Assembly: GCA_017993615.1 (NCBI GenBank)
Contig: JAGOMJ010000002.1
Span: 96,991-130,563 of the forward strand
Direction of reading: 5' to 3'
Source: Smithella sp.
GTDB taxonomy: Bacteria; Desulfobacterota; Syntrophia; Syntrophales; Smithellaceae
DNA length: 33,573 nt
Part shown: piece by piece, positions 5,403 to 32,017 of the stretch
Position numbering within the stretch: position 1 is the first letter of the stretch
Layout of the letters: every line of letters begins with the position of its first letter
Translations under genes and position numbers: made by a program
The notes under the pieces: generated by a model
What the model saw: only the letters and a program-made list of their open reading frames with translations
What the model was told of the DNA's origin: nothing
Database searches by the model: none

Positions 5403-5406
5403 GTTG

Positions 5407-16261: not shown

Positions 16262-16269
16262 GTAATTAA

Positions 16270-16729: not shown

Positions 16730-16854
16730 ATAAAAAAGTTCCATACAGATGTTCCTGATTCCCTCTCCTGCTCAGAAAACTTGATCCCGCTCTTTTGACT
16801 GGTCTGTTTGCGGAAGCATTGAACCCCGTCAACACAATTCAAAGGAGGTCACTT

Positions 16855-17313
16855 ATGCCGGCCAAAAAATTGAAAGAGTTTCTGGACAGCCATGGAGTGA
16901 AATATGTGAAGCTCACGCATTCGACGGCGTACACAGCCCACGAAATTGCTCAATCCCTGCACATCAGCGGAAGGAAGGTGGCAAAGACCGTCATCGTGAT
17001 GATTGACGGAAAGATGGCAATGGCGGTCCTGCCGGGCAATCGCTCCGTCAATTTCGATCATTTTCAAAAAGCCGTCGGCGCGAAGAAGATCGAACTTGCC
17101 ACCGAAGCGCAATTCAAAGGCATGTTCCCTGATTGCGAGCTCGGCGCCATGCCGCCTTTCGGCAATTTGTACGGGATGGAGGTTTACGCGGATCAGCATC
17201 TGACGGACGATGATGAAATCTTTTTCAACGCCTGTTCGCACTCGGAACTGGTCGAGATGTCTTATCCGGATTATGAAAGACTGGTGAAACCCAACGTGGT
17301 GAAGCTTACGTGA
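16855..17313 (+). CDS. YbaK/EbsC-type aminoacyl-tRNA deacylase
   Basis: The ATG at 16855 follows AAAGGAGG by 6 bases. An in-frame start at 16795 is rejected. The 152-residue protein is a free-standing YbaK/ProRS-editing domain. It has the N-terminal LKEFLDSHGVKYVKLTHS, the catalytic lysine K44 in VAKTVIVM, and a late GAMPPFG loop equivalent to the family's GxxxPFG motif. These cytoplasmic proteins hydrolyse misacylated tRNAs, such as Cys- or Ala-tRNA(Pro), acting in trans. The exact aminoacyl-tRNA substrate cannot be told from sequence alone. The gene stands between the FAD-oxidoreductase remnant and the small gene at 17344, with 30 bases to the latter. Confidence 0.88.
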   Translation: MPAKKLKEFLDSHGVKYVKLTHSTAYTAHEIAQSLHISGRKVAKTVIVMIDGKMAMAVLPGNRSVNFDHFQKAVGAKKIELATEAQFKGMFPDCELGAMPPFGNLYGMEVYADQHLTDDDEIFFNACSHSELVEMSYPDYERLVKPNVVKLT

Positions 17314-17343
17314 TAGCGTTCTAAGTTCAACGTTCAATAAAAC

Positions 17344-17589
17344 ATGAATGGGAAATATCAAGAAATTCAGGTTGAATGCTACAGCGGTTTTAAGGCGAAT
17401 GAACGCCCGGTTGCTTTTACATATCAGGGAGAGCGGCAGGAAATTCAGGAGGTTGTTGATCGCTGGTATCACGGAGGTCTGTACAGCAGCAAACCCGTTA
17501 TTAATTTCTTCAAAGTAAGGACCGCAGACGGCAAGGTCTATCTTCTGCGCTATCAGTTTGATTCGGATGCATGGTCGCTGCGGATATGA
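17344..17589 (+). CDS. Small cytoplasmic protein, DUF6504-like
   Basis: An 81-residue protein without signal or membrane segment. The pattern VECYSGFKANERPVAFTYQG, then EVVDRWYHGG and FFKVRTADGKVYLLRYQ, matches a widespread small family of unknown function (DUF6504-like, recalled by eye). The conserved CYSGxKxxERP and DRWY motifs suggest a compact beta-rich domain. No clear ribosome binding site precedes the ATG. Readthrough from the YbaK-like gene 30 bases upstream, or weak initiation, would be needed. It converges with the thiolase-like gene, whose stop lies 41 bases away. Confidence 0.75.
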   Translation: MNGKYQEIQVECYSGFKANERPVAFTYQGERQEIQEVVDRWYHGGLYSSKPVINFFKVRTADGKVYLLRYQFDSDAWSLRI

Positions 17590-17630
17590 TGACCGCAGAC
17601 GTCAGGATGATGATTTCAGAATCTTCGTTT

Positions 17631-19151
17631 TCAGTTCGGTGTGAAAAGATTGATCTTATCCTTGGAAACGACTCTGCCCGTTACACCGCAGATGTCTTTC
17701 TCAATCATGGCTGAAAACAGAGACGGATCTGAAGGTGTAAAAGCGGCAAAGCGTTTCCCGTTTTCTTCTTTTCCGATGACAATACCCTTGTTCGCCAAAT
17801 TGTCCCGGTCGTAAATCACGGTATAGGTGTCCACCGTTGCCCGCCCCGAAGGCGTCGGATCAATCTCATATTTAGGCCGTTTATCGACTGCCTGCTGGCA
17901 CGTTCGTGTATCGGCTGTCGCCGCCGCATTGTTCTCGGGAGACCGGGTAGAGCACACGGCTGTTGAGTGCTTGGTCATGTAAAAAGAATTTCCCGTGACA
18001 AGACCGGTCCTGCCGGGATGCCGGCGCAGAACCTCAACCATTTGCGCCATGGAGTGCATGACATAGTTGTTTCCCGGTCCGCCGAAATAGGGAAGTCCCC
18101 CTGTAACGGTCAGATCGCGGCTGTCATTTTCAGGAATACCCAGCATGTCTCGGGTTACCTGCACGGCAACCGGAAAACAACTGTACAGATCAAAGAAATC
18201 GATATCTTCGATGGTTAAACCGGCCTGCTTCAGGGCCGTCCGGCCTGCGATTTCAATGGCGGGAGAAAAACCATAGCCTTCTCTTTCCAAGACATTCAAG
18301 TGATCGTTGGCTTCGGCATAACCGTGGACATACACCCACTTTAACGGATTCACGCCCATCTTTTGTGCCTGTGCTTCCGATGCGACAAGGAGTGCGGCGG
18401 CCTGATTTACCAACAGCATGGCATTCATCCGTTTGGTATACGGGAAAGCGGTGTTGCGATTCGTTTCCGAAAGGGTCATGATTTCTTCCGGCGTGAACGA
18501 ATGCTGAAACCAGGCAAGAGGATTTTTGGCAGCCACCAAGGAGAGGCGGCTCATCAGCCTGCCTATCTTTTCTGCATGCTCTTCAATTGTGCAGCCATAG
18601 CGCCGGCGAAGAGCATTCTCAAACATGGGATAGACATAAGCGGGAAGTGAAAGTCCGTGAATGTGCTCTGTTTCGCAGGCGCCGTCAAACAGCCCCAGCG
18701 GAGTCAGTGGCGGCAGGCAGGGCCGACCGGACGCCACGTTCCAGCCGGTAAAGGTTTTGGAATTTTTCGCCTGCTGCATGGTGTGTTGAGCCTCTGCTCC
18801 GGTCAAAATAACCAGACCGGCTTTCCCTCCGGCAATCTCCTGCATGGCATGATGCAGCACGGCGTGCGGCATGACACCGCCAAAGCCGGAAACTCTGCAT
18901 CGTGCGTCGGTCAGATTCAGTTTATCGGCCACGCATCCCGGCGGGTTGGCAATACCGTCATCGGAAAAAAGCGACGTGGTCATCAGCAGGTCGGCCTGTT
19001 GTAAGTATTTTTCTGTCACGCCGCCATCTTCTGCCGCAATTTTCACGGCCGCTGCCATAAGGTCTATCGGCGAACCGCCTTGCACAGATGATGCCTCTCT
19101 TTTTGTCACCTGCCCTGCCCCGATAATCACCGGAATATTTTCAGAATTCAT
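17631..19151 (-). CDS. Thiolase-superfamily protein with degenerate active site and C-terminal extension
   Basis: A 506-residue protein with GGAAG 8 bases before its ATG. The N-terminal thiolase half (VIIGAGQVTKRE, GGKAGLVILTGAEAQ) and the C-terminal half (FDLYSCFPVAVQV, then GGLPYFGGPGNNYVMHSMAQ) fit the SCP2-thiolase branch. Catalytic motifs look altered: where thiolases have the nucleophile in a CxSG motif there is CRVSGFGG with the cysteine (C85) one position off, and the GHP histidine site reads GGP. Residues of about 428-506 form an extra domain (VDTYTVIYDRDNLANKG) like that of mycobacterial thiolase-like protein 1. It may bind acyl-CoA or act with a partner rather than catalyse standard thiolysis. 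The substrate is unknown. Confidence 0.85.
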   Translation of the reverse strand: MNSENIPVIIGAGQVTKREASSVQGGSPIDLMAAAVKIAAEDGGVTEKYLQQADLLMTTSLFSDDGIANPPGCVADKLNLTDARCRVSGFGGVMPHAVLHHAMQEIAGGKAGLVILTGAEAQHTMQQAKNSKTFTGWNVASGRPCLPPLTPLGLFDGACETEHIHGLSLPAYVYPMFENALRRRYGCTIEEHAEKIGRLMSRLSLVAAKNPLAWFQHSFTPEEIMTLSETNRNTAFPYTKRMNAMLLVNQAAALLVASEAQAQKMGVNPLKWVYVHGYAEANDHLNVLEREGYGFSPAIEIAGRTALKQAGLTIEDIDFFDLYSCFPVAVQVTRDMLGIPENDSRDLTVTGGLPYFGGPGNNYVMHSMAQMVEVLRRHPGRTGLVTGNSFYMTKHSTAVCSTRSPENNAAATADTRTCQQAVDKRPKYEIDPTPSGRATVDTYTVIYDRDNLANKGIVIGKEENGKRFAAFTPSDPSLFSAMIEKDICGVTGRVVSKDKINLFTPN

Positions 19152-19165
19152 TTTTCAACTTCCGT

Positions 19166-19483
19166 TTATTTCTTTATTTTTAAAGATGTTTTACTCTTGT
19201 TGCCTCTGCCGAACAACACACGCAGTTCGTCTTTGGCCTGTTCCAATATTGCTTTTCGTTCGGCCGGCAGTTTTGTGCCCGCGCGATTGATATAATAGTT
19301 CAGCATGGACATGGCGGATTGAAAAGGTTCCGCTTTTCTTTGCGTAGAGCTCTCGGCGGATTCTTTAAGCGATTCGGCAATCCGTCGCGGATTGTCAAAA
19401 GTAAATACACCGGATTGCAAATCGAGGGCAAAGCTGGTTTCCTTGACTTTTTGCGTCCAGCTTTCTTTTGTTGCTTTCTTCAT
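19166..19483 (-). CDS. DUF3175 family protein
   Basis: The ATG at 19483 (MKKATKESWTQKVKE) gives 105 residues. It matches DUF3175, whose members share a W..xVxExSxALDLxxGVFTxDxP start (here residues 9-30) and a core with RKAxPFxSAMSMLxxYINRAG, followed by a KAILEQAKDELRVLF helix. A basic lysine-rich tail (KSKTSLKIKK) suggests nucleic acid or anionic partner contact, but the role is unknown. No ribosome binding site precedes the ATG. Instead a perfect extended -10 ends 6 bases before it, which points to a leaderless transcript. The gene ends 14 bases before the start of the thiolase-like gene on the same strand, so the two may be cotranscribed. Confidence 0.8.
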   Translation of the reverse strand: MKKATKESWTQKVKETSFALDLQSGVFTFDNPRRIAESLKESAESSTQRKAEPFQSAMSMLNYYINRAGTKLPAERKAILEQAKDELRVLFGRGNKSKTSLKIKK

Positions 19484-19489
19484 TGCAAA

Positions 19490-19498
19490 ATTATACCA
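19490..19498 (-). promoter_or_regulatory. Extended -10 promoter positioned for a leaderless transcript
   Basis: TGGTATAAT on the minus strand (19498 to 19490) is a full extended -10. Only 6 bases (TTTGCA) separate it from the ATG at 19483, so the expected transcript start is at or within one or two bases of the start codon. The -35 region (TGGAAT, about 19513-19518) is weak, as is common with extended -10 promoters. Confidence 0.55.
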
Positions 19499-19549
19499 GA
19501 TTCCTGCCGTGCATTCCATATTCGCGGCTGATGCAGGCTAACGTCAGAA

Positions 19550-21097
19550 TTACTTCCGGTTTCCCATTTTGACGACGGCGTCGAACTCGTCGGTGATTTC
19601 TCTGGCAGGCGCTTTGCTGAGCAGGCTGACGACGATGATTGCCAAACAGGCGAAAACAAAAGCGGGCAGCAGCTCATAAATGTTCCAAACGCCGCCGAGG
19701 GGCCGTACGAGATATTTCCATACAAAGACCATCACGCCTCCGGAAACCATGCCGGCTATGGCGCCGTATACATTGGAACGTCTCCAGAAAAGGGCAAACA
19801 GCATAACCGGACCGAAGGCCGCGCCGAAACCGGCCCACGCAAACGAAATAATGACAAAAATCGAGCTGTCCGGATCTCTGGCGATGAACGCGGCAATGGC
19901 AGCAATCACAATAACGGCCGATCTGGCAATCATCATGCCGGTTTTTTCGGAAAGCCTAATGTCGAAACATTCCTTTATGAGATTCTCAGTCACGCTGGAG
20001 GAGGCCACCAGAAGCTGTGAGTCGGAGGTGGACATGGTGGCGGCCAGAATGCCGGAAAGAACAACACCGGCAATTAAAGAGCTGATCACGCCGGTGTGGC
20101 TCAGAAGCTGTGCCATCCGGATGATGATTGTTTCGGATGCGCTTCCTTCCAGTGCGGCAATCTCACCGTTGAGGGACAGGGTTTGACCGACAATGCCGAT
20201 CAAAACGGCCACGGCAAGTGAAACCACAACCCAGGTCACCGCGATCTGCCGTGAAAAAACAATTTTCTTTTCATCGCGGATGGCCATGAATCGCAAAAGA
20301 ATATGGGGCATGCCGAAGTAACCCAGTCCCCAGGCCATTGTAGAAATGATGGTAATCAGTCCGTAGCGTTCCGTCTGACCGGTCGTGGAATTATGTGAAA
20401 ACATCATACTGAGATAACCGGGAATAGCATCCGCCTTTTGCCACACGGCATCAATGCCGCCTGCAACAGCAGCGCCGAACATCAAAATGCTCAACAGCGC
20501 AATGCTCATGACAATGCCCTGGATCAGATCAGTAGTGCTTGCGGCAAGAAATCCGCCAACCGTCGTATAGGCAACGACAACAACCGCACCGATGAGCATG
20601 GCCGTTGTGTAATCAAGACCGAACACACTATTGAAAAGCTTTCCGCAGGAGGCAAAACCGGCAGCGGTATACGGAATAAAGAAAATCAAGATGACAATGC
20701 TGGCGATCCATGTGAGAATTTTTTTGGAATCGCGATAACGGTTGGAGAAAAATTCCGGCAGGGTGATGGCGTTTTGCGACAGTTGAGAATAGCAGCGCAG
20801 ACGACGGGCTACCGTAAGCCAGTTGACATAAGTGCCGATCGCCAGACCGATTGCCGTCCAACCCGCATCCGCAATACCGGACAGATATGCAACGCCGGGA
20901 AGTCCCATGAGAAGCCAGCTGCTCATATCTGATGCTTCGGCGCTCATGGCAGTGACGATGGTCCCAAGTTTTCTGCCGCCCAGATAAAAATCGCCGATCT
21001 GATCATTGCGTCTGGCAAAGACAAAGCCGATGACGATGACCACCACCATGTAGGCGGCAATGGACATCAGCATATAAAAATTGAAGTTTCCCGTCAT
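19550..21097 (-). CDS. putP: Sodium/proline symporter (SSS family, PutP type)
   Basis: A 515-residue polytopic protein, close to the 502 residues of E. coli PutP, with about 13 hydrophobic segments. The motif SAEASDMSSWLLMGLPG (about 52-68) contains the equivalents of the PutP sodium ligands, D57 and S59. A GLGYFGMPHILLRFMAIRD stretch is the family signature near the middle. It should import proline, or a closely related solute, with sodium across the inner membrane. A GAGAGATT site precedes the ATG. A 233-base gap separates it from the divergent acyl-CoA synthetase operon. The substrate is assigned by family resemblance and was not derived from the binding site. Confidence 0.88.
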   Translation of the reverse strand: MTGNFNFYMLMSIAAYMVVVIVIGFVFARRNDQIGDFYLGGRKLGTIVTAMSAEASDMSSWLLMGLPGVAYLSGIADAGWTAIGLAIGTYVNWLTVARRLRCYSQLSQNAITLPEFFSNRYRDSKKILTWIASIVILIFFIPYTAAGFASCGKLFNSVFGLDYTTAMLIGAVVVVAYTTVGGFLAASTTDLIQGIVMSIALLSILMFGAAVAGGIDAVWQKADAIPGYLSMMFSHNSTTGQTERYGLITIISTMAWGLGYFGMPHILLRFMAIRDEKKIVFSRQIAVTWVVVSLAVAVLIGIVGQTLSLNGEIAALEGSASETIIIRMAQLLSHTGVISSLIAGVVLSGILAATMSTSDSQLLVASSSVTENLIKECFDIRLSEKTGMMIARSAVIVIAAIAAFIARDPDSSIFVIISFAWAGFGAAFGPVMLFALFWRRSNVYGAIAGMVSGGVMVFVWKYLVRPLGGVWNIYELLPAFVFACLAIIVVSLLSKAPAREITDEFDAVVKMGNRK

Positions 21098-21273
21098 AAT
21101 CTCTCAACCATCCCTTCAACCATTAGTCGGGAATGAAACCATTAACATGCCGCTTATTATTTTTTCTGACGCCATAACATTGCTGCAATAGTTATGCTCC
21201 CCGGAACCTTAAAAAGTTTTGTTACAATTTTGTCGATCATTCGTCAACCGCCAGTTGCGCTCAATAAAGGTTC

Positions 21274-21301
21274 TTGACAATTCCGGATAAAATAAACTAA
21301 T
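21274..21301 (+). promoter_or_regulatory. Promoter of the acyl-CoA synthetase operon
   Basis: TTGACA (21274-21279) and ACTAAT (21296-21301) are 16 bases apart. The -35 is perfect and the -10 has four of six matches. The transcript start would fall near 21308, within the palindrome at 21303-21316. Confidence 0.5.
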
Positions 21302-21302
21302 G

Positions 21303-21316
21303 ATTTAACGTTAAAT
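21303..21316. promoter_or_regulatory. 14-bp perfect palindrome at the operon start, candidate operator
   Basis: ATTTAACGTTAAAT reads identically on both strands and covers the predicted transcription start of the acdB-like operon, immediately before the AAGGAG ribosome binding site. This is a typical position for a repressor operator, and occupancy could block both initiation and elongation. The cognate regulator is not encoded next door. Confidence 0.5.
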
Positions 21317-21330
21317 GATAAGGAGATACT

Positions 21331-21999
21331 ATGTTGGATGTAATAGAAAAAGCTTTGAAGGAAGGACGAAAGACTCTTTCGGAATACGAATCCAGGCAGG
21401 TAATTGAATCAGCCGGTGTTGCGGTGGCGGTAGCAGCGCTGACCAAAACCAAAGAAGAAGCGATCCGGGAAGCCGAACAAATGGGGTATCCCGTGGCGAT
21501 GAAAGGGTGTTCCGCCGAACTTTCCCATAAAACGGAAGCGGGGATGGTTGCACTGAATGTCAACAGCGCGCAGGACGTCGCACAGGTTTTCGACGCACTG
21601 ACCGGCAAGGTAAAAAATCTCGACGGCGTGCTGGTGGAAAAGATGGTCAGGGGGTCGCGCGAACTGGTGATCGGTCTTTCGCAGGATTCGAGTTTCGGCC
21701 CCTGTGTGATGTTCGGCCTCGGCGGTATTTTTACCGAAGCGCTCAAGGATGTGACGTTTCGGGTTGCCCCGCTGACGAAACAGGATGCGCTGGAAATGAT
21801 CGATGAAATCAAAACTAAAAAATTACTCGGCGAATTCCGGGGCAGCCCGGCCGTGGACCGAAATGCTCTGGCCAAAGCGCTTGTGGGCATTGGGGATCTG
21901 GCCATCAAGTATGAAGCCATCGCCGAGATCGATATCAATCCGCTGATTGTCTGCGGAGACAAACCGGTTGCCGTCGATGCGCTGGTGGTATTGAAGTAA
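21331..21999 (+). CDS. ADP-forming acyl-CoA synthetase, beta (ATP-grasp) subunit
   Basis: A 222-residue protein with AAGGAG about 6 bases before the ATG. It consists of an ATP-grasp domain of the type forming the beta subunit of ADP-forming acetyl/acyl-CoA synthetases (LSEYESRQVIESAGV start, GYPVAMKGCSAELSHKTEAG, GGIFTEALKDVTFRVAPL, and IAEIDINPLIVCGD with the metal-binding D and N). Length agrees with free-standing archaeal-type beta subunits. It binds ADP or ATP and phosphorylates the alpha-subunit histidine, linking acyl-CoA cleavage to ATP formation. The alpha subunit gene follows 131 bases later and a CMD-family gene comes third. The acyl substrate is not evident. Confidence 0.88.
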   Translation: MLDVIEKALKEGRKTLSEYESRQVIESAGVAVAVAALTKTKEEAIREAEQMGYPVAMKGCSAELSHKTEAGMVALNVNSAQDVAQVFDALTGKVKNLDGVLVEKMVRGSRELVIGLSQDSSFGPCVMFGLGGIFTEALKDVTFRVAPLTKQDALEMIDEIKTKKLLGEFRGSPAVDRNALAKALVGIGDLAIKYEAIAEIDINPLIVCGDKPVAVDALVVLK

Positions 22000-22130
22000 C
22001 GCTGTCATTACAGAACACTTTTTGAACATCGTGACAATCCAAAAATATTTTGGTCCCTGTTCTCAACATGACAATTCATTGCCCTGCACGTGTGCCAGCA
22101 ATGCATAAAACGAAGATTTGGGAGAATGTA

Positions 22131-23522
22131 ATGTTAGATTATTTTTTTAATCCGAAAAGCGTCGCCATTATCGGAGCATCCAGCAATATGAATAAGGGCG
22201 GCTATCATATCATTAAAAATATTACGTCCGGATTTCCCGGGAAAATCTATCCGGTCAACAAAAATTACCCGGACATGCTGGGACTTCCCTGCTATAAGGA
22301 CCTTGCTTCAATTCCGGGCAATATCGACCTGGCTATTTATTTTATTCCTTCGAAAGAATTGCCCGACACGGTCAATGAATGCGCAAAAAAAGGCGTCAAG
22401 GGCATCATCATCGAATCAGGCGGATTCAATGAAGCCGGAGCAGAAGGCGCCAGAATTCAGAAACTTGCCCTGGATAATGCCGCCCGAGCGGGCATCCGGT
22501 TGTGGGGCCCTAACTGCATGGGCTTTATTGATGCCAACAAAAGGTATGTTTTTTCTTTTATCAATTCTCTGGTCTGGCCGGACGTTTTGCGCGGCGGCAA
22601 CGTCGGCATGATTGTGCAAAGCGGAATGCTTTCCGCCGGTTTCCTGCTGCATGCCCTGCAGGAAGGCATCATGGGCGTCAGCAAGGTGTGTTCCATCGGC
22701 AATAAGTGCGACATCAACGAAAACGACATCCTGGAACATCTCATTGACGACAAGGATACTGAGGTCATTGCCTGCTATCTCGAATCGCTGGTGGACGGAA
22801 GAAAGTTTTTGGACCTGGCAAAGAAGACAGAAAAACCGATTATTGTTCTGATGGGCGGCCGCAGCCAGGAAGGAGCAAAGGCGGCGCAAAGCCACACGGC
22901 AAGCCTGTCGGGAAATTATAAAATTGCCAGCGCCGCCTTCAGACAGGCGGGCATTATCGAAGTGTTTGATCCGGCGGAACTGACCGACATCGCACGGGCT
23001 TTCGCCAAGAACATGCCTTTTCATCCCGAAAAGGAAAAGGGCACGGCTATCCTAACGTTCTCCGGCGGCGCGGGAACCGTCACCACAGACCTGATGGAAG
23101 ACTGCGGTCTGAAACTGGCAAAATTGAGCGACCGGACCCTCGCGGCGGTCGCGGAACTTTTCCCGCCCTGGAATAAACCCGACCATCCGCTCGATCTCTG
23201 GATCGCCATCGAACGCCACGGCTTCGAAAAGGTATTCCGGAATTCTCTGACGGCGGTCATCAACGATCCGGGGGTCGATTCAATCATCTTTCACAGTTAT
23301 GCCTCGCCATTGATCGGTCAGGATTTTTTTGAAGAACTTGCTGCGATGATTAAGAAAAACAAAAAACCGGCTGTGTTATGGATCGAAGGAAGAAAGGATT
23401 TCGCCGAACATATCCGGGGTATTGCTGAAAACGCAGGCCTGCCCGCTTATCGCGAAATGAACCGCTGTGTTACCGTCATGAACGGCATGAAACGTCATTT
23501 CACGAAAAAACCGATGAGCTGA
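22131..23522 (+). CDS. ADP-forming acyl-CoA synthetase, alpha (CoA-binding) subunit
   Basis: The ATG at 22131 follows GGGAG by 6 bases. A frame opening at 22050 lacks such a site. The 463-residue protein has an N-terminal CoA-binding Rossmann domain (VAIIGASSNMNKGGYHIIKN), a linker with RLWGPNCMGFID, a succinyl-CoA-ligase-like domain (MIVQSGMLSAGFLLHALQEG) and the phosphohistidine motif SHTASLSG with H255, matching the active histidine of the alpha subunit in archaeal ACD enzymes. With the beta subunit it should convert acyl-CoA, ADP and phosphate into the acid, CoA and ATP. Separate subunits encoded beta first are less common than fused genes. The downstream TTG gene starts 12 bases later. 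Confidence 0.88.
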   Translation: MLDYFFNPKSVAIIGASSNMNKGGYHIIKNITSGFPGKIYPVNKNYPDMLGLPCYKDLASIPGNIDLAIYFIPSKELPDTVNECAKKGVKGIIIESGGFNEAGAEGARIQKLALDNAARAGIRLWGPNCMGFIDANKRYVFSFINSLVWPDVLRGGNVGMIVQSGMLSAGFLLHALQEGIMGVSKVCSIGNKCDINENDILEHLIDDKDTEVIACYLESLVDGRKFLDLAKKTEKPIIVLMGGRSQEGAKAAQSHTASLSGNYKIASAAFRQAGIIEVFDPAELTDIARAFAKNMPFHPEKEKGTAILTFSGGAGTVTTDLMEDCGLKLAKLSDRTLAAVAELFPPWNKPDHPLDLWIAIERHGFEKVFRNSLTAVINDPGVDSIIFHSYASPLIGQDFFEELAAMIKKNKKPAVLWIEGRKDFAEHIRGIAENAGLPAYREMNRCVTVMNGMKRHFTKKPMS

Positions 23523-23534
23523 AAGGAGATCGCC

Positions 23535-24065
23535 TTGGCACGCATACCTGATTTTCAACCGGGTCCGGCTGATACGGAAAAGAAATTTCTTCAGGGCAAG
23601 CCCCCTTTTGATTTGAATATTTTCAAGATCATCACGCACGCCCCCGTCGGGATTGCCAGGGAGTTTATCGGACTTCCGGCATCTGTGCTCATGGCGGGGA
23701 AACTCGATCCGGTTCTGAGAGAAATGGCCATCACCCGCGCCGGCATTCTGTGCAATTCCGCGTATGAGGTGCATCAGCATCGCAAACTCAGCAAACTGGT
23801 GGGCTTGCCCGAAGAAAAAATTAAAGCTCTGGATACCGGTTCAGCATCCCCGGTCTTTTCCGGCATCGAAAAGCTCGTTTTGCGCTTCACCGAAGAAACC
23901 GTCCTGCAGCGAGAGGTCAGCGATGCAACGTTCGCCGAAATCTCGAGACATTTTTCTGAGGATTTACTGGTAGAACTTTCTATCGCGGTATGCTGCTACA
24001 TGGCGGTCAGCATTTTCCTCAATACGTTTGAAGTAAATCTTGAAGAAAATGATGTACCCTTTTAA
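23535..24065 (+). CDS. Carboxymuconolactone decarboxylase (AhpD-like) family protein
   Basis: A 176-residue protein starting at TTG (23535), which is preceded by AAAGGAG 8 bases upstream and lies 12 bases after the alpha-subunit stop, so it belongs to that operon. The core REMAITRAGILCNSAYEVHQ followed by HRKLSKLVGLPEEKI is the CMD/AhpD helical pattern, with a cysteine and a YEVxxH motif. It carries only one cysteine in the motif rather than the CxxC pair of peroxidase-linked AhpD, so a redox role is unlikely and a decarboxylase-like or acyl-binding role is possible. The operon context suggests a step in the pathway feeding the acyl-CoA synthetase. Confidence 0.82.
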   Translation: MARIPDFQPGPADTEKKFLQGKPPFDLNIFKIITHAPVGIAREFIGLPASVLMAGKLDPVLREMAITRAGILCNSAYEVHQHRKLSKLVGLPEEKIKALDTGSASPVFSGIEKLVLRFTEETVLQREVSDATFAEISRHFSEDLLVELSIAVCCYMAVSIFLNTFEVNLEENDVPF

Positions 24066-24538
24066 CCTTAATAATTGTTTTCTTTCCATCAGTTTCATTC
24101 ATCTTGACAGCAATTGGAATCCTCATCCGGTTTTCCTTTTATTACGAATTTAAAAAACGAAAATAATTTGAAAATATGCAAATTTCCCCGCTATAAAAAA
24201 CGGAATATGTTTATCGTAAAACGATTTTTCCGTAAAAACGATTACAGCCCAAATGGTAAAAATGTAAGCAATTGATATTATTAAGTATTATTATTGCATA
24301 AACCTTGTGCATATTGGTGGAAATTCGTAATAATTGAACACTTATGGCGCCAGTTAACAGGGTTATCAACAGGTCTTTCCACAATATTGTGGAAAGACCT
24401 TCATCACGGAATAAAAGGTTAAAAATTAAAAATATTTTTGTCTATTTAGATTTTGTTGGACAATAAATTCGATGAACAGATAAAAAAATTATGCAGCACA
24501 CAACCATTGTACCGGACGTTCTGAAACATTTTCTCCGG
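24066..24538. other. AT-rich intergenic region with palindrome and repeat elements (473 bases)
   Basis: No gene is visible between the rightward CMD-family gene and the leftward TPR gene. Bases 24140-24300 are strongly AT-rich. Four T-A(4-6)-CG(A/G) repeats lie at 24151, 24194, 24217 and 24233. DnaA-box-like 9-mers, each with one mismatch to TTWTNCACA, occur at 24306-24314 (minus), 24363-24371, 24375-24383 and 24388-24396 (minus). The last two are the mirrored halves of the palindrome at 24371-24400. This combination can be read as a replication-origin-like region, although no dnaA, dnaN, gidA or parAB gene is nearby, or as a transcription-termination region between convergent genes. Confidence 0.45.
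24371..24400. repeat. 30-bp perfect palindrome
   Basis: AGGTCTTTCCACAAT followed directly by its reverse complement (24386-24400) makes 15-bp arms without spacer. As RNA it would form a stem of about 13 bp with an AUAU loop. No U-run follows on either strand, which argues against a simple intrinsic terminator. It could be a recombination or regulator binding site, or a cruciform-forming origin element. Confidence 0.7.
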
Positions 24539-25510
24539 TCACGAACAGTATCCCTTGCCTTTTACCTTCTCCAACAGGTCGCATTTTCCTAATTCACATG
24601 CTTTTTGCGCATCATTGCAACCATCTTCTTTATTCATATGATCAAAATAAACGTTGGCTCTGTTGTAATAGGCATCCACGTAATCCGGCTTTATTTTAAC
24701 AGCTTCGCTGAAGTCCTCAACAGCTTTCTGATATTGACCTAAAGCAAGATAAGCGGCGCCTCTGTTGTTGTGGATGATGGCACTATCCGGTTTCAGGCGG
24801 ATGGCTTCATTATAATCTGCAATGGCTTCCTGATGTTTCCCGAGTTTACTCAAAGCCAATCCCCTGTTGTTATAACCGTAAATCGATTGCGGTTGCAGTT
24901 TGATGGATTCATTATAATCTTGAACAGCTTCCGGATACTGGCCGATTTCAATGTAGGCGTTTCCCCGATTGTTGTAGGCATCGGCATAATCCGGTTTTAA
25001 TTTAATGGCTTCGCTCAGATATTCAATGGCCTTCCGGGGATCGGTGCATTTTCCGCTGATACACAGTTCAAATGCTTTGCGAAATAATCCATTCGCCTCA
25101 TCACGGGCGGGTGCAGCAGCTATCATTCGGTTATCGGAAGCTGCCGGCTGATTTACAGGCGCATAAACGGCTTGCTGTTCGACCGCCTGTGTGTTGCTCA
25201 CTTCAACTTTCTTTTCACTACATTTTTGTACGATTGCAAGCAGAATACCGACAATCAGGATGATCACGACTATGAAAGGATATTTATTTCTGTTCCATGT
25301 TTTTCCGAAACCGGTTTGACGTTCGATTGGAGCTTTGCCTTGTCTCTTCTTCCGCGAATCTTTGACAATCTTAGGCTGTTTCGCCTGCTGATCCGGTTGC
25401 GGCGGTTGAGATGCCGACGCTGGCGTCAGGGGTTCCAGCACAACATTGCAATAACGGCATTTTTGAGTTTTATCCTTAAAGCGCGTCTGGCAAACAGGAC
25501 ATATCTTCAT
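24539..25510 (-). CDS. Zinc-ribbon, transmembrane, TPR-repeat protein
   Basis: A 323-residue protein with GGAG 8 bases before its ATG. The first 21 residues hold a zinc ribbon (C4, C7, C18, C21). A proline- and lysine-rich linker leads to a membrane helix (about 78-96). After a short Ala-rich segment, four or five tetratricopeptide repeats occupy about 140-300 (pattern ADAYNNRGNAYIEIGQYPEA repeated with KLQPQS, RLKPDS and KIKPDY ends). It ends with a cysteine-rich tail (GCNDAQKACELGKCDLLEKVKG). TPR units mediate protein-protein contacts and are probably extracytoplasmic here. The function is unknown. It is transcribed alone, converging with the acyl-CoA synthetase operon. Confidence 0.8.
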   Translation of the reverse strand: MKICPVCQTRFKDKTQKCRYCNVVLEPLTPASASQPPQPDQQAKQPKIVKDSRKKRQGKAPIERQTGFGKTWNRNKYPFIVVIILIVGILLAIVQKCSEKKVEVSNTQAVEQQAVYAPVNQPAASDNRMIAAAPARDEANGLFRKAFELCISGKCTDPRKAIEYLSEAIKLKPDYADAYNNRGNAYIEIGQYPEAVQDYNESIKLQPQSIYGYNNRGLALSKLGKHQEAIADYNEAIRLKPDSAIIHNNRGAAYLALGQYQKAVEDFSEAVKIKPDYVDAYYNRANVYFDHMNKEDGCNDAQKACELGKCDLLEKVKGKGYCS

Positions 25511-25839
25511 AATGATGTCTCCAAAAGGTATCTTCTAACCGTCATCCGAATATTTCTTCTCCCGTTTTGGCATGGCTGGATTCTTCACGTTTTAATCTCG
25601 TGATGCTATCGTTATAAATTTTCGGGGGAAACTCTTGTTGCCACAAAATGACATCCGGCAAAACCCCAAACATTGCAGAATTAAACCGTTTCCCGAATAA
25701 CAGGAAATCGTTGAATTCGGATTTAAATGGTATTTGGCTATTATCATTTTATGTGGCCTATGAAAAGACAAAAACAAATATTTTTTTAATATTCTTAAAA
25801 TAAATAAAAAAAGAGTAGGAATAAGTACAGGTATTGTAC
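25511..25839. other. Intergenic region upstream of the TPR gene (329 bases)
   Basis: No supported gene. An open frame at 25592-25777 has no family likeness. Its right end (25805-25844) holds the terminator-like hairpin of the DUF1893 pair. The rest presumably carries the TPR-gene promoter: a TATAAC at minus strand near 25612-25617 is a possible -10, without a good -35. Confidence 0.4.
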
Positions 25840-25844
25840 TTATT
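25805..25844 (-). terminator. Intrinsic-terminator-like hairpin after the DUF1893 gene
   Basis: On the minus strand AATAAGTACA (25844-25835) and TGTACTTATT (25829-25820) form a 10-bp stem around a 5-base loop that overlaps the DUF1893 stop codon. A seven-T run (25812 to 25806) comes about 7 bases later. The stem is AU-rich and the U-tract somewhat distant, so the call is moderate. Confidence 0.5.
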
Positions 25845-26244
25845 TTCGCTGATTATCGAGCATCGTTTTGATTTGCCGCATGAAATCTGCGGGATCTTTT
25901 GTTTTCAAGGCGATGACTTCACCGGGGCAGACCGCTGTTTCATCCTGCGTCAGAATATTGGCCGTGATGCCCGCAGCATTCATGAGGATTCCATGATCTT
26001 TTAGAAATTTGTCCGCCGGAGCGGAAGCAACTGTTGTGTTCACTTTCGCGATAATGCCCGAATAAACGACCAGTTTGGCCGCGGCCAGTCCGATGATTTT
26101 GTCGTGCAGGATCAATCCGGATTTTGCCCGGAACTTTTCAAGCGCCTCGAAAAGCGGACGCACCCCCTTGCCGTTTGATGCATGGATTAACGCGCCCCCC
26201 TCGAATAAGGCCAGAGAATATTTTGAGAAATCCGGGATCAGCAT
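25840..26244 (-). CDS. DUF1893 family protein
   Basis: The ATG at 26244 overlaps the end of the upstream membrane gene by 7 bases (ATGCTGA), indicating translational coupling, and fits the family start. A longer frame to 26292 would lie wholly inside the upstream gene. The 134-residue protein matches DUF1893, a deaminase-like fold: SLALFEGGALIHASNGKGVR at the start, then DKIIGLAAAKLVVYSG, and a late ETAVCPGE motif with a single conserved cysteine. The histidine-glutamate catalytic set of true cytidine deaminases is not seen, so enzymatic activity is uncertain. Pairing with an ECF-S-like membrane protein suggests a small-molecule (vitamin or nucleoside-like) context. That is an inference. Confidence 0.82.
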   Translation of the reverse strand: MLIPDFSKYSLALFEGGALIHASNGKGVRPLFEALEKFRAKSGLILHDKIIGLAAAKLVVYSGIIAKVNTTVASAPADKFLKDHGILMNAAGITANILTQDETAVCPGEVIALKTKDPADFMRQIKTMLDNQRK

Positions 26245-26732
26245 AACAGTTTTCGCAATGGTTTGTTGATGGCGCTGATCAGAACGGCCCATAAAATGTC
26301 TGCCAGAAATAAAACAACAACCAGTTTTAGAATAAATGCTTCTGAAAGATGCATCAAATAATAATCCGAAACAACCAGCCAGGGAAGCTGACAGATGAAA
26401 GCCAAAATAACTGAAAGAATCAGATTATCCGTCTTTTGGTAAAACAGTCCCGTAAAAAAACCCAGGGCCGCGTTCCCGATGATCAGGTAAGGATTGCCCA
26501 GCAGAAAAGCGGAATACAGGGAACCTGCAACGCCGGCGGCCAGTCCGCCCGTCGCACCGAATATCAGAGCCGCCAGAATAATCGCGGCCGGGAAAAAATG
26601 GACCTTCCACTGCTGCGCAAATTCCAGATTAATGAGACTCAACACGAAAGGGAAGACAATCAGCAGAAAAAAAACCTCCGCCATGCGTCTGTATAGCGTT
26701 GTGCCGCTTGCTGTCGTTGATGAATGCATCAT
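26238..26732 (-). CDS. ECF-transporter S-component-like membrane protein
   Basis: The ATG at 26732 follows GAGAGG by 8 bases. A GTG at 26741 would sit inside that site. The 164-residue protein has five or six hydrophobic segments, including AAIILAALIFGATGGLAAGV and a glycine-rich GNPYLIIGNAALGFFTGLFY turn, like the substrate-binding S components of energy-coupling-factor importers. It lacks any ATPase or T-component gene beside it, so it may use a shared module elsewhere. The substrate cannot be told. It is translationally coupled to the DUF1893 gene and diverges from the DUF362 gene, with 143 bases between starts. Confidence 0.7.
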   Translation of the reverse strand: MMHSSTTASGTTLYRRMAEVFFLLIVFPFVLSLINLEFAQQWKVHFFPAAIILAALIFGATGGLAAGVAGSLYSAFLLGNPYLIIGNAALGFFTGLFYQKTDNLILSVILAFICQLPWLVVSDYYLMHLSEAFILKLVVVLFLADILWAVLISAINKPLRKLLC

Positions 26733-26875
26733 ATCGGGCACCTCTCGTTTGTTATTTTTGAGGTTTAGCTTACACTATTATCGATTCTTTGAACAGACTC
26801 GAAGATGATTTTTTGATGCAATAAAAAACAAAAAGATTTAAAATATGTTATCCAAATAAGGAACGGAGACGGACC

Positions 26876-27919
26876 ATGAAAGATTTATTCTTTGAACCGG
26901 TTAAAGGCGGGAAAAAACCTTACCTTGAATCGCTGAGAAAGCTTCTTCAACACCTCCGGCCTCCCTTCTCCGCCGGCGACACCGTCGGCATTAAATTGCA
27001 CTGGGGAGAAAAAGGCAATAAAGGTTTCCTGCCGCCTGATTATGCAAGGGAAATTGCTACCTGGCTAATTGCCCACGGAACTAAACCGTTTGTTTTTGAT
27101 ACAACGGTTCTCTATTCCGGCGGACGCCGTACGGCCGAAGACTCGCTCATAACGGCCGCCTCCCACGGCTACACGCATGACTTTCTGGGTTGTCCGGTGA
27201 TTATCGCCGACGGCATGGACAGCCGCAATCTTGTGGATATTCCCGCCGGGTTCAATCATTTCAGGACCGTGCAGGTGGCCAATGTTTTTGAGAACGCGCA
27301 GGGGTTTGTCATCTTCTCCCATTTCAAAGGACACATGGTTTCGCTTTTCGGAGGCGCCATTAAAAATATGTCTATGGGTTTCGCGTCCCGCGCGCAGAAG
27401 CAACGCATGCATTCCGATTATCATCCCGTCCTGAATAAGAAAAAATGTACACGCTGCGGAGTTTGCGCGGAAATCTGTCCGACCGGAGCGGCAACTATCG
27501 CAACATCCGACTATCCCACATATGATTTAAAAAAATGCATCGGCTGCGCCCAGTGTATTGCGATGTGTCCGGAAATGGCACTGCAGATTTTCTGGAATTC
27601 GGACATGACGGTTTTTCAGGAAAAGCTTGTGGAAACGGCGGCGGCCGTGTGGAAAATAATCAAGGACAAGACCATCGTCATCAATTCACTGCTGAATATT
27701 ACCGTGGAATGCGACTGTCTCCCCGGTAAGAATCCGGTGATTCATGAGGATATGGGATTTATCGGCGGTTATCATCCCGTGCCCGTGGATGCGGAATCGC
27801 TCAAAATGACCGGCGCAGATATTTTCGAAAAAGTCCATCCCGGCATTCCCTGGCAACGGCAATTCACCTATGCCCGGGAAATCGGTTTTTCTCCTGCCCG
27901 GAACATCACCGGATTTTAA
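26876..27919 (+). CDS. DUF362 protein with 2[4Fe-4S] ferredoxin domain
   Basis: A 347-residue protein with GGAG about 8 bases before the ATG. The first 190 residues are a DUF362 domain (VGIKLHWGEKGNKGFLPP, FVFDTTVLYSGGRRTAEDSL, FVIFSHFKGHMVSLFGGAIKN). A ferredoxin insert follows with two cluster motifs, CTRCGVCAEICP beginning at C191 and CIGCAQCIAMCP beginning at C221. After it the DUF362 fold resumes (NSLLNITVECDCLPG and EDMGFIGGYHPVPVD). It is a probable cytoplasmic iron-sulphur protein of unknown substrate, widespread in anaerobes. It converges with the deoxyhypusine-synthase-like gene, their stops being 27 bases apart. Confidence 0.88.
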   Translation: MKDLFFEPVKGGKKPYLESLRKLLQHLRPPFSAGDTVGIKLHWGEKGNKGFLPPDYAREIATWLIAHGTKPFVFDTTVLYSGGRRTAEDSLITAASHGYTHDFLGCPVIIADGMDSRNLVDIPAGFNHFRTVQVANVFENAQGFVIFSHFKGHMVSLFGGAIKNMSMGFASRAQKQRMHSDYHPVLNKKKCTRCGVCAEICPTGAATIATSDYPTYDLKKCIGCAQCIAMCPEMALQIFWNSDMTVFQEKLVETAAAVWKIIKDKTIVINSLLNITVECDCLPGKNPVIHEDMGFIGGYHPVPVDAESLKMTGADIFEKVHPGIPWQRQFTYAREIGFSPARNITGF

Positions 27920-27946
27920 ATTTGAAAACCGCCGGGCGAATCCCGC

Positions 27947-28939
27947 TTATTCCGCAAGAACGTAAGCGAAAATCAGAGGGGCAACAATTGTGGCATCGCT
28001 TTCAATGATGAATTTTTTTGAATCGGGGCGGATCTTTCCCCAGGTGATTTTTTCATTAGGAACGGCGCCGCTATACGAGCCGTATGATGTCGTGCTGTCC
28101 GAAATCTGACAGAAATAGGACCATAACCGGCAGTCCATTTTCATGTCCTGCTGAATCAGGGGAACAACACAAATGGAAAAATCTCCGGCAATACCTCCCC
28201 CGATCTGGAAAAAGCCCGTTTCGCTGTGCCGGGATGCATCTAAATACCAGTCAATCAAGGCATCCATTGTTTCCAGACCGGATTTCACAATCGAATAATG
28301 CTTAAGTTGTTTCCTGCGGACACTGGAAACAAAATAATTGCCCAGAGAGGAGTCCTCCCATCCGGGAACAAAAATCGGAATGTTTTTTTCACAGGCGGCA
28401 ACCAGCCATGAATCTTTTTCATCGATTTCATACTGATCTTTCAGCACGCTGCTGCTGATGATCTGCATGATGAATTCATAGGGGAAGTACCGTTTATTCT
28501 CATCCTCAGCTTTTTTCCAGAAACTGAAAAGCTTGCCTTCGACCTTCCGCATGGCTTCTTCTTCGGGGATGCAGGTGTCCGTCACCCGGTTCAGCTTGTT
28601 TCTCAGCAGTTCCGCTTCATCCTCGGGTTTCAAATCCCTGTAATTTGGAACACGCTTGTAATGCTTGTGGGCGACCAGATTGAAAAGATCCTCTTCCAGA
28701 TTTGCGCCTGTGCAGCATACGGCATGAATTTTACCGCTGCGAATCATTGCCGCGAGAGTGATACCAAGTTCCGCGGTGCTCATGGCCCCGGCCAGTGCCA
28801 TCAGCATTTTCCCGCCGTTATGAATATGATTCGCGTAGGCCTCCGCTGCATCCACGACGACAGCGGAATTGAAGTGTCGATAATTGTGTTTTATGAATTC
28901 CTTGACGGATTGAAATTTGGAAGTGTCGTGATCATACAT
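27947..28939 (-). CDS. Deoxyhypusine-synthase-like protein
   Basis: A 330-residue protein after a G-rich site (GGGGGGTATTAA). It has the DHS fold signatures: an N-terminal segment with MLMALAGAMSTAELGITLAA, the NAD-binding middle CCTGANLEEDLFNLVAHKHY, a substrate region with FVPGWEDSSLGNYF, and near the C-terminus WGKIRPDSKKFIIESDATIV with the lysine K302 equivalent to the human active-site lysine. Eukaryotic and archaeal DHS transfers the aminobutyl group of spermidine to eIF5A, which bacteria lack. Bacterial relatives act on polyamines (homospermidine synthesis) or have unknown acceptors. Residues such as the conserved lysine are intact, so an NAD-dependent spermidine-cleaving reaction is likely. 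Confidence 0.85.
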   Translation of the reverse strand: MYDHDTSKFQSVKEFIKHNYRHFNSAVVVDAAEAYANHIHNGGKMLMALAGAMSTAELGITLAAMIRSGKIHAVCCTGANLEEDLFNLVAHKHYKRVPNYRDLKPEDEAELLRNKLNRVTDTCIPEEEAMRKVEGKLFSFWKKAEDENKRYFPYEFIMQIISSSVLKDQYEIDEKDSWLVAACEKNIPIFVPGWEDSSLGNYFVSSVRRKQLKHYSIVKSGLETMDALIDWYLDASRHSETGFFQIGGGIAGDFSICVVPLIQQDMKMDCRLWSYFCQISDSTTSYGSYSGAVPNEKITWGKIRPDSKKFIIESDATIVAPLIFAYVLAE

Positions 28940-28976
28940 TTAATACCCCCCAAACCAGCACTTTCATTGGCACCTT

Positions 28977-29006
28977 ACAATAAATGCAAAATGTTCTCAA
29001 TGACAA
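28977..29006 (-). promoter_or_regulatory. Candidate promoter of the deoxyhypusine-synthase-like gene
   Basis: TTGTCA (29006 to 29001), 18 bases and TATTGT (28982 to 28977) on the minus strand form a moderate sigma-70 match. The transcript would start near 28970, about 31 bases before the ATG. Confidence 0.4.
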
Positions 29007-29121
29007 AATGAAAATATAAGTATTTTTAACGTATTATGAGCATCGTGTCTACATTCTTTATCAAACGGAAGCCGTTTCAACAAAGCCGGACACGGGGGAA
29101 GGCGGCAAATTCAACGAATCC

Positions 29122-30189
29122 CTATCGGGAGTGTTTAAAAAGAAGATGATGAGATTGCAGAACCGGCTTTATTTTTGCGGCCAGTTTTTCGGCTATTTGA
29201 ATCGTCCCGAAGTCTCCCAGATGCACCATGTCCGGGCAAAGACCGCCCGCAACATCCGGCATCAGGTCCTGACCTTCTATCAGATAGAGATTATCCAGCG
29301 CAGAATTTTCCACGGCTTTCCGAAGCAATTTGCGGTACAGGTCGGGCTTTTTGCTTTCGATATAATCTCCCAGATACGGCTTGAGCGTGATGCAAAAAAC
29401 CGGACGGCTTTTGTTGCTGCCGGCGATCCTGTTGATCATGTAACTGACTCGCCTCGAAAATTCTTCCGGCGAAAATGTGTCGACCATGTTCAGGGAAAGA
29501 TCAAGCGTCGCAAAGCTCCAGTCCTTTCTTCCGGCGATATAGTCGGCCATTTCCGGTTCGCAATATGCCGAGCAGGAAGAACCCAGATTGATAACGTCCA
29601 CGCCGAGACGGCAGCCGACCAGATTCGGATAGCTCAAATGCGATTCCGAAGCATAAGCTCCCTGGGTAAGCGACGTTCCATAGGCCAGATAGCTCAGGCC
29701 GGGCAATTCCTCAGCGTGGGGAGGTCTTATTTTTCCTTCCGTTTCAATGCCATGAAACCGGATGGGAGCGCCCATGGTCGTTCCCCAAAACCTGATTCTA
29801 CAGACATGGGGAGAAAACGGCGCATCGGTCGCAATTTTCTCCGCCAGTTCGATGAATTTCGGCGGCCGGATGATTTCCAGCAGGGTTTTGATTCTCTTAA
29901 TCACAAAACGCTGCCTCGTTTGAAAGGTTCCGAAAAAAACCCGGGCATCGGTAATAATTCCGTCGCCGAGATGCTTTGTGATTTTATCCACGGACAGGGT
30001 GATTTTCACAGGATACGTTTCACTGACAAAACGGATTTCCGAACCGGAAGGACAGATCATCATCATTTGTCCGGCTTTGCTGAGACGTGCGGAAACGTGT
30101 TCGGGAATACGTCCTAACAGAAGCCCTTCAATATCTTTGTGTTTGTATAGCCCGTCTACGTTATGAAGAGCCACATTTTCAAAAATCAT
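29122..30189 (-). CDS. SGNH/GDSL-family hydrolase
   Basis: A 355-residue protein with GGGAG 6 bases before the ATG. The first 165 residues are a beta-rich domain without a recognised name (MIFENVALHNVDGLYKHKD...RFWGTTMGAPIRFHG). The SGNH domain begins with LSYLAYGTSLTQGAYAS, where S173 takes the nucleophile position of block I. Block II is NLGSSCSAYCEP (with the glycine), block III appears as LSLNMVD with the asparagine, and block V is DMVHLGD, giving the Asp-His pair. It is probably a cytoplasmic or peripheral esterase or deacylase, since no signal peptide is evident. The domain order (N-terminal beta domain, then SGNH) resembles carbohydrate esterases. The substrate is unknown. Confidence 0.82.
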   Translation of the reverse strand: MIFENVALHNVDGLYKHKDIEGLLLGRIPEHVSARLSKAGQMMMICPSGSEIRFVSETYPVKITLSVDKITKHLGDGIITDARVFFGTFQTRQRFVIKRIKTLLEIIRPPKFIELAEKIATDAPFSPHVCRIRFWGTTMGAPIRFHGIETEGKIRPPHAEELPGLSYLAYGTSLTQGAYASESHLSYPNLVGCRLGVDVINLGSSCSAYCEPEMADYIAGRKDWSFATLDLSLNMVDTFSPEEFSRRVSYMINRIAGSNKSRPVFCITLKPYLGDYIESKKPDLYRKLLRKAVENSALDNLYLIEGQDLMPDVAGGLCPDMVHLGDFGTIQIAEKLAAKIKPVLQSHHLLFKHSR

Positions 30190-30222
30190 CCGTTCTCCCG
30201 TTTTCAGGATTGACTTAATTCT

Positions 30223-30540
30223 TTATTTGTTTTCCTGGCGTCTGAATTTGAATTCAACGCCGGCCGGTGTTTTCATAACCAGACACCGATTCTCGTTAAT
30301 CTGGAGCATCGTATCTCCGATTCCCATTTGACATTTCAACAGGTCCCCCTCTTTGATACAGGGGAAAGATCCTAAAGCGGTATCGACTTTATAAGCACTG
30401 CCGCTTTTGGTTATGGTCAGCATTTCCTTTTCTATCACGTCGTTGAACCATTTACCCGAAAACGGGTCGCTCATTCCGCACGATAAAAGGAAGAGGGCTA
30501 TGAGCATCACCGCCACAACGGCAGATTTTCTGATAATCAC
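30223..30540 (-). CDS. Small lipoprotein, unknown function
   Basis: The GTG at 30540 lies 5 bases after a perfect AGGAGG. An in-frame TTG six codons upstream would absorb that site and is rejected. The 105-residue product has a lipoprotein signal peptide: a positive start, a hydrophobic core VVAVMLIALF and the lipobox LLSC with C21. The mature part starts GMSDPFSGKWFNDV and holds a small beta-rich domain with two further cysteines (SFPCIKEGDLLKC). Modified and anchored by the lipoprotein pathway, it would sit at the inner or outer membrane facing the periplasm. A good promoter lies at 30598-30625. I recognise no family. Confidence 0.75.
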   Translation of the reverse strand: MIIRKSAVVAVMLIALFLLSCGMSDPFSGKWFNDVIEKEMLTITKSGSAYKVDTALGSFPCIKEGDLLKCQMGIGDTMLQINENRCLVMKTPAGVEFKFRRQENK

Positions 30541-30597
30541 ATGGACCTCCTTTTTCAAATATACTGATTGCGATGCCCGTTGTCGCAGAGCGTTTAG

Positions 30598-30625
30598 CTG
30601 ATATCACATGCAAGTTTTTTGTCAA
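30598..30625 (-). promoter_or_regulatory. Promoter of the lipoprotein gene
   Basis: On the minus strand TTGACA (30625 to 30620), 16 bases and TGATATCAG with TATCAG at 30603-30598 (an extended -10) form a good sigma-70 promoter. The transcript would start near 30591, leaving about 50 bases of leader. Confidence 0.5.
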
Positions 30626-30799
30626 CACAGCGATCGCGTTATTTAACCTGTAACGTTTGCAGCGGCATTTCTGTATGCGGCGCAATATCATTATTACCGT
30701 TGCGCGAAACACCGGATATTTCCTGCAATGCAACGACCGATTTCATCGCCTTTGGTTGCATCCATGGCGCGTACAATGAAATATATGCGCATACCTTCC

Positions 30800-32017
30800 T
30801 CATCCCGACAAGTTTTTTTTATCCTGTGGCGTGCCGGTCGGAATGGCCTCGCCGGTTTTCCCAAATACGATGTTGCCGTACGCCATGATTAAAATGGTAA
30901 TGAATATGATCTGCGTCACCACGCCGGTATTCATATAGGGCAGCGCCATGGCTTGCGGTATGCTCAAAAAAAGTAAAATGGTTATCAGGCCTCGCGGTGC
31001 AAAATAAAGCAGCGGGGTCATTGAAATCCGGATAATGCTCTTTAAATACAAAGCTCGTAACGCATATATTGCGGCAACAATCAGAACGGAAAATAATAAA
31101 TTGTTTAAATTCAGCAAATCAAAAAGGCTCGTATAATATCCGAACAGGACAAAAAAGAAGGAACGGACGATAAAGGTCATTTCCGACGTAATATTTTTAA
31201 AAGCATTCAATTCTGTGTTGAAGTCTTGAAAATTAATGAACTGAGCGGTGATGCTGTTTTCGAAAAGATTATTGTTGTTCATCACCAGGCCAAAAATCAG
31301 GACCACCAGCAGAGACGGCAGATGAAGCAACCTGGACAGCGCATAGACAAGAATAATCGCGGTCATAATGATGATGTATTTTACATGATGGTTGATCTTA
31401 TGCAAAATGACAGCCAGAAATGCGCTGAATAACACAGAGGCAAACAATGTGACAATGATTTCCAGAAGAAAATTCAGAATGCCTGAAAAAAGATGACCGT
31501 TACTGATGACCACATAATTGAATGCCAGAATACCGAAAATATCAGAGATAGAACTTTCATATATGACAAATTCCCGGTTATTTCCCGACAAACCGACCGC
31601 CGATGGAATCGCTACGGCACTGCTGATGACGGCAACTGGAATAATGTTAACCAGAGAGGTCCTAACATCGTAACCCAGACCATAGGATAACATAAGCGCA
31701 AACAAGCCCGTGAATACCAAAAAAAGAACAATGGCTGAAGACATGGACTTGAGGATCAGGGACTTTTTTTGTTTGCTCAGGGTCAAATCGAGACTGGCTT
31801 CCAGAACAATCAGGATGAGCCCTACCGTCCCCATGACCGGCAGGATCACATCAATTTGTGATACTTCAAAGTTAAAATAACTGTCGATGGAATTGATGGC
31901 CATTCCCGTAAGAATCAGAAGCAGAACACCGGGAATTTTTGTTTGCCGCGATGTCACGTCAAAAAAATACGCCAGCAGGATAACGACACAGAAGGCAATA
32001 ATGATGTAATAGGTCAT
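30800..32017 (-). CDS. Cation/proton antiporter (CPA family)
   Basis: The ATG at 32017 (MTYYIIIAFCVVILLAYFF) follows AAGGA by 9 bases, giving 405 residues. An in-frame start at 32065 has no clear ribosome binding site. About 12 hydrophobic helices are visible. The segments GVLLLILTGMAINSI, VGLILIVLEASLDL, and AISSAVAIPSAVGLSGN with the later ESSISDIFGI are typical of CPA1/CPA2 sodium or potassium/proton exchangers, the acidic residues lying in the ion path. No C-terminal regulatory domain such as RCK/TrkA-N is present. The cation is not determinable from the sequence. It lies 87 bases downstream of radC on the same strand. Confidence 0.85.
   Translation of the reverse strand: MTYYIIIAFCVVILLAYFFDVTSRQTKIPGVLLLILTGMAINSIDSYFNFEVSQIDVILPVMGTVGLILIVLEASLDLTLSKQKKSLILKSMSSAIVLFLVFTGLFALMLSYGLGYDVRTSLVNIIPVAVISSAVAIPSAVGLSGNNREFVIYESSISDIFGILAFNYVVISNGHLFSGILNFLLEIIVTLFASVLFSAFLAVILHKINHHVKYIIIMTAIILVYALSRLLHLPSLLVVLIFGLVMNNNNLFENSITAQFINFQDFNTELNAFKNITSEMTFIVRSFFFVLFGYYTSLFDLLNLNNLLFSVLIVAAIYALRALYLKSIIRISMTPLLYFAPRGLITILLFLSIPQAMALPYMNTGVVTQIIFITILIMAYGNIVFGKTGEAIPTGTPQDKKNLSG

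Follow-up and report, generated by a model that had tools for sequence, protein, structure and literature searches.

A perfect palindrome in a Smithella genome forms one end of a conserved DnaA-box element, a candidate DARS-like site

Which function, if any, resides in a perfect 30-bp palindrome that separates two convergent genes in a genome of Smithella? An initial annotation of the stretch of 33,573 nt analysed here (the window) had considered the palindrome far beyond chance, had noted its convergent neighbours and the lack of a U-tract, and had offered a dimeric protein, a role in replication or recombination, or a bidirectional stem as explanations. Its descriptive part was borne out. 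The arms, AGGTCTTTCCACAAT and ATTGTGGAAAGACCT, comprise 15 bp each, are 100% complementary and meet with a spacer of 0, and such a palindrome is expected 3e-5 times per window; first-order Markov simulation, run 100 times, gave no arm longer than 12 bp, a length that was reached once, and never one of 15 bp. No T-run follows on either side. The intergenic region of 473 bases is bounded to the left of the palindrome by a CMD-family gene on the plus strand that ends at 24065, and to its right by a TPR gene on the minus strand (24539-25510). A search for other copies, as had been proposed, gave a divided answer: the full palindrome occurs a single time in the window and in the whole genome, and its inner 20 bp, with at most one mismatch, have no copy among 196 other genomes, but the palindrome is, judging by the sequence, the right (3') end of a larger conserved non-coding element of approximately 135 bp that is widespread in relatives (Table 1).

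Table 1. Positions of the conserved element, its parts and a nearby terminator-like site in the window.
Feature	Position	Strand	Basis or remark
Whole conserved element	24262..24397	+	positions 4-139 of 160 in covariance model R1; 99.9 bits, E 1.7e-29, the window being among the 39 sequences from which R1 was built
IHF-type site TAAGCAATTGATA (consensus TAAnnnnTTGATW)	24265..24277	-	0 mismatches; kept in relatives
Conserved inverted repeat TTGCATAAACCTTGTGCAT, TTGC-N11-GCA(T); TTGC-N11-GCAA in relatives	24294..24312	.	alignments
First DnaA box, degenerate (CAGTTAACA); relatives often have TTATCAACA	24351..24359	+	alignment
DnaA box TTATCAACA, corresponding to box III of DARS	24363..24371	+	
DnaA box CTTTCCACA, corresponding to box II of DARS; forms the left palindrome half	24375..24383	+	
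Inverted DnaA box TGTGGAAAG, corresponding to box I of DARS; forms the right palindrome half	24388..24396	-	
30-bp perfect palindrome (head-to-head boxes and lineage-specific outer bases)	24371..24400	.	sequence, alignment
Separate site resembling a terminator, after the TPR gene	24494..24514	-	1 found; shuffles mean 0.4

A motif-free BLAST search with the intergenic DNA gave matches in 29 of 60 genomes (28 of the 59 others), mostly over query positions 200-329, equivalent to 24265-24394 of the window and ending inside the palindrome. In an alignment of 19 BLAST loci with the window, approximately 90 bp of conserved AT-rich DNA precede a box cluster that reads TTATCAACA, TTATCAACA, nTTTCCACA and inverted TTGTGGAA at constant spacing, and boxes resembling TTATCAACA and TTTCCACA, as well as TTGTGGA, recur at fixed distances in the 19 loci. 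The direct DnaA-box-like 9-mers at 24363 and 24375 are 12 bp apart, the second of them forms the palindrome together with the inverted one at 24388, and about 9 bp of each palindrome arm are a DnaA box that is kept in relatives. Peculiar to the source genome, as far as searched, are only the outer bases of the palindrome and its palindromic ATAT spacer; in the same alignment the outer arm bases of the relatives are non-palindromic, most of them reading TTTCCACAnnnTTGTGGAATACAAAT. Because of these non-palindromic outer arms, and because none of the 196 genomes holds the inner 20 bp, we regard the perfect 30-bp symmetry as a local overlay on conserved facing DnaA boxes. Template switching that corrects an imperfect inverted repeat is a possible origin of such symmetry.

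A pattern search through 84,980 species genomes returned 50 stretches, mostly titled Smithella, Syntrophaceae or Deltaproteobacteria. After duplicates, one hit with too short an end (L034) and twelve hits taken as non-Desulfobacterota had been set aside, 39 of the 40 elements at that stage (L049 was left out) formed alignment A1, from which the sequence-only covariance model R1 was built. R1 detects the element in 115 of 119 genomes, one of them the source genome (114 of 118 others), mostly in one to three copies, and found nothing in four of the 119, among them G016, which is 94% complete. Outside the order Syntrophales, 44 of 144 genomes of the phylum contain weaker versions of the element by this model (E <= 0.001). 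Note that box clusters alone from other phyla, for which the twelve hits set aside served as control, reach 20-34 bits on R1, mostly at positions >60 (the right part), so that the weak matches outside the order count only where the left part matches too. The A2 and A3 searches covered 47 and 27 chosen sources, respectively, and a subset of the matches. In an alignment of 24 rows from the better matches outside the order, TAACnTATTGATAT, TTGCnnAA...TTnnGCAA and the boxes are kept, and the gene neighbours differ. The twelve control hits (L031, L035, L043, L044, L048, L051, L054, L055, L056, L060, L067 and L069) show the same DnaA-box triad under titles of other groups, many of them Clostridia; dnaA was not found in the stretches around eleven of them, and the triad of L043 (Acidobacteria) lies beside dnaA.

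The source genome contains two copies, the one in the window and one at C28:19995-20131 between ilvE and lolA. The latter setting is frequent: 12 of the 25 chosen loci whose flanks were read adjoin ilvE, as identified by sequence, LolA was found on the far side of the element in all four loci tested with Pfam (L178, L195, L141 and L188), the ilvE side being tested with Aminotran_4 in L178 and L195, and L033 and L057 have the same arrangement according to gene names that come from reading the sequences. Other copies sit at unrelated loci, and the element persists while its gene neighbours vary. The left neighbours of the window copy recur at a copy in G011 (L050), and in a tree of 20 labelled copies the extra Smithella copies tend to group apart from those between ilvE and lolA, with a weak support of 0.70. 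In two loci outside the order, L233 and L242, the copy lies between murJ-like and mazG-like genes as read by eye, a second possible anchored position.

With regard to the proteins that may act here, TTATCAACA-type boxes at a distance of 12 bp, together with an inverted one, are also present upstream of dnaA in three relatives (G007, G008 and G004; loci L117, L121 and L129), a likeness that the element shares with this region; the other dnaA loci scanned had no such cluster in the stretches examined. As this is the usual place of DnaA boxes, this clade probably uses the 9-mer as a genuine DnaA box, and binding of DnaA to the element appears likely from its sequence. The putative IHF site was assessed with the consensus given in a passage of PMC4245941: 19 of 48 rows match it without mismatch, against 0.3 for permuted motifs, and 17 of the 24 rows from outside the order, which were selected by R1, do so with up to one mismatch, against 0.7. 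IHF-alpha- and IHF-beta-like genes occur in 21 of 21 genomes, none of them reaching the curated cut-off, and in 17 genomes no Hda was found above cut-off. The draft source genome itself has two full-length dnaA genes, at C72:89296 (L003) and C90:2255 (L002), whose products measure 465 and 454 aa, and a third match, weak and partial, lies on a fragment, C52:193; since C90 is a contig of 4.5 kb, the second dnaA is possibly contamination.

The arrangement of the boxes invites comparison with the DnaA-reactivating sites of E. coli. There, DARS1 and DARS2 have three boxes of identical spacing with box I facing boxes II and III, as described in a passage of PMC5742627, and a passage of PMC10380432 calls the head-to-head pair of boxes I and II characteristic and essential, and suggests that ADP-DnaA bound to it releases ADP. 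Like both sites, the element has two direct boxes and one facing them, CACA ends inward, and is intergenic; a putative IHF site close by, an exact consensus match in the window, further resembles the regulatory region of DARS2. Position gives a mixed picture: most placed copies lie between origin and terminus, and one copy in G084 is near the terminus, unlike DARS1 and DARS2. The box triad scores at least as high as the best of its shuffles in 41 of 47 Syntrophales elements and 21 of 24 from outside the order. Its spacing is not that of E. coli, however. By our measurement DARS1 and DARS2 both have a gap of 3 and a spacer of 5, whereas in Syntrophales the gap is 3 in 45 of 47 triads and the spacer 4, 1 bp shorter, in 44 of 47 (47 of 48 rows were counted, a weak second match on L187 being dropped), and outside the order a gap of 2 and a spacer of 5 each occur in 17 of 24. 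The Syntrophales count is partly circular, as most R1 sequences were chosen with a fixed-spacing pattern; the alignment obtained by BLAST alone nevertheless agrees with it, and the spacing outside the order differs from that of R1. Because the exact spacing is not matched we name the element DARS-like and not DARS. It also differs from E. coli DARS in an IHF-type site within approximately 90 bp of the boxes, in the additional conserved TTGC-N11-GCAA repeat in its middle, which is present outside Syntrophales too, in an often present fourth box, and in host phylum and gene neighbours. According to PMC10380432, conservation of DARS-like sequences extends to many species of proteobacteria, and PMC4245941 describes the DARS2 core as specific to E. 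coli-related gamma-proteobacteria; neither passage mentions Desulfobacterota, and our literature searches found no paper on DARS-like elements in this phylum.

We favour, with a probability of roughly 0.6, the reading of the element as a DARS-like chromosomal site for the control of DnaA. DnaA would bind the direct boxes at 24363 and 24375 and the inverted box at 24388, with two molecules facing each other across the palindrome as they do at boxes I and II of E. coli DARS, and the AT-rich left part would be bent against the assembled DnaA by IHF, or a protein like it, at 24265-24277. In this complex DnaA would then change its nucleotide state, most likely by releasing ADP so that new ATP-DnaA forms, which would help to time initiation at the distant oriC. 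In the best reading of the data, DnaA may thus assemble at the element, probably with IHF, to have its nucleotide state reset, with reactivation as the direction that we infer, and the element probably helps to time chromosome replication. The proposals of a dimeric protein and of a role in replication in the initial annotation pointed in the right direction, in that the sequence suggests a head-to-head pair of DnaA boxes within an element resembling those of replication control. A more specific version is held only tentatively: an IHF-linked, DnaA-reactivating element of Desulfobacterota that occurs in many lineages, with an anchored copy between ilvE and lolA in Syntrophales and extra copies elsewhere, with a spacing of its own, an additional putative protein site at TTGC-N11-GCAA and no recognisable Hda, might represent a DARS system outside the bacteria in which such systems have been worked out. 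Little is known, outside E. coli and its relatives, of how DnaA is reset from one round of replication to the next, and a short element that many members of an order share at an orthologous position, and that is recognisable farther in the phylum, would open this question to experiment in syntrophs and sulfate reducers, which grow slowly. If the reading is true, it would also suggest that initiation has been governed from distant DnaA-box elements for longer, or in more bacteria, than is apparent from the work on E. coli.

The combination of a DnaA-box cluster and an IHF-type site away from oriC is equally a feature of datA, as described in a passage of PMC5742627, and several copies are present per genome in many genomes, as might befit a site that binds DnaA and either promotes hydrolysis of ATP-DnaA with the aid of IHF or simply sequesters the protein, in both cases lowering initiation. 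We consider such a datA-like or titration site rather unlikely, as the IHF site of both datA and oriC sits between the DnaA boxes (PMC5742627, same passage) but the one here lies outside the cluster, and as the head-to-head pair in the triad is the signature of DARS (PMC10380432, as above).

DnaA boxes, AT-rich DNA and an IHF-type site are also the ingredients of an oriC, and the element was first read as a replication origin; copy number, GC skew and where dnaA lies in G084 and G250 led us to drop this reading. In G084, a single contig of 3,179,300 bases, dnaA lies within the first 1.5 kb, with parA/parB-like genes beside it as read by eye, and the GC skew is mostly positive up to about 1.8 Mb and mostly negative beyond 1.8-1.9 Mb; the two copies of the element are at 859 kb, in mid-arm, and at 1906 kb, near the terminus. 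The single contig of G250, a genome from another family, measures 3.06 Mb and agrees, with dnaA at 1.6 kb, the element at 1041 kb, between oriC and terC like the 859-kb copy, and the skew change near 1.6-1.76 Mb. As the copies in both genomes are away from dnaA and from the skew origin, the element is not oriC there. A distance of 636 kb separates element and dnaA on one contig of G007, where the skew is mostly negative on both sides of the element and does not switch, and on CP070774.1 (G299; 2.07 Mb) the element is at approximately 184 kb and dnaA at 1510 kb. In the source genome C49 has a negative skew throughout except near 0 at 110-120 kb, and C28 a mostly weakly positive one; G184, a gapped scaffold with erratic skew, was left out of this comparison. 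R1 does not exceed 15.2 bits near dnaA in seven dnaA-region or chromosome-start stretches, and the dnaA-region stretches of Syntrophales among them hold no strong or full-length match. Together with the two or three copies at unrelated loci in many genomes, this renders a second or former origin improbable. Along the window the skew moves from approximately -0.1 (1-16000) to approximately 0 (16000-33573), with the change near 16 kb.

An operator or promoter, at which DnaA or another dimer would regulate a neighbouring gene such as lolA, seems just as improbable. The copy between ilvE and lolA is indeed upstream of lolA, and some other copies are upstream of genes as well, but the neighbours change and the element stays. 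The window copy is unlikely to be a promoter because convergent genes flank it, and no promoter-like site was found between 24000 and 24620.

The idea of a bidirectional stem, and with it that of an ordinary bidirectional terminator or RNA hairpin, did not hold up and is very improbable. Lying between convergent genes, the palindrome can fold as RNA into a stem of 13 bp and -21 kcal/mol, and the window stretch folds with a z of -6.0, but equivalent stretches of relatives fold far less well (z -0.1 in L012 and -2.3 in L178). No U-run follows the stem as in an intrinsic terminator, the only terminator-like site near the palindrome lies on the minus strand directly after the TPR gene, and Rfam had no match in the window. 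As the outer arms are palindromic in the source genome alone, a conserved hairpin or terminator is not supported, and the inner stem is nearly invariant and free of compensatory changes in a fold of the alignment of 39 sequences, which fits protein sites and not a conserved RNA hairpin. A chance palindrome without function, to which the restriction of the outer symmetry to the source genome (as far as searched) might point, is scarcely credible given the expected number per window and the conservation of the inner part far beyond this genome. In the left part of the element, 8 of the 39 sequences in alignment A1 have coupled two-sided changes at columns 62 and 82, which perhaps mark another dimer site or stem from a clade effect.
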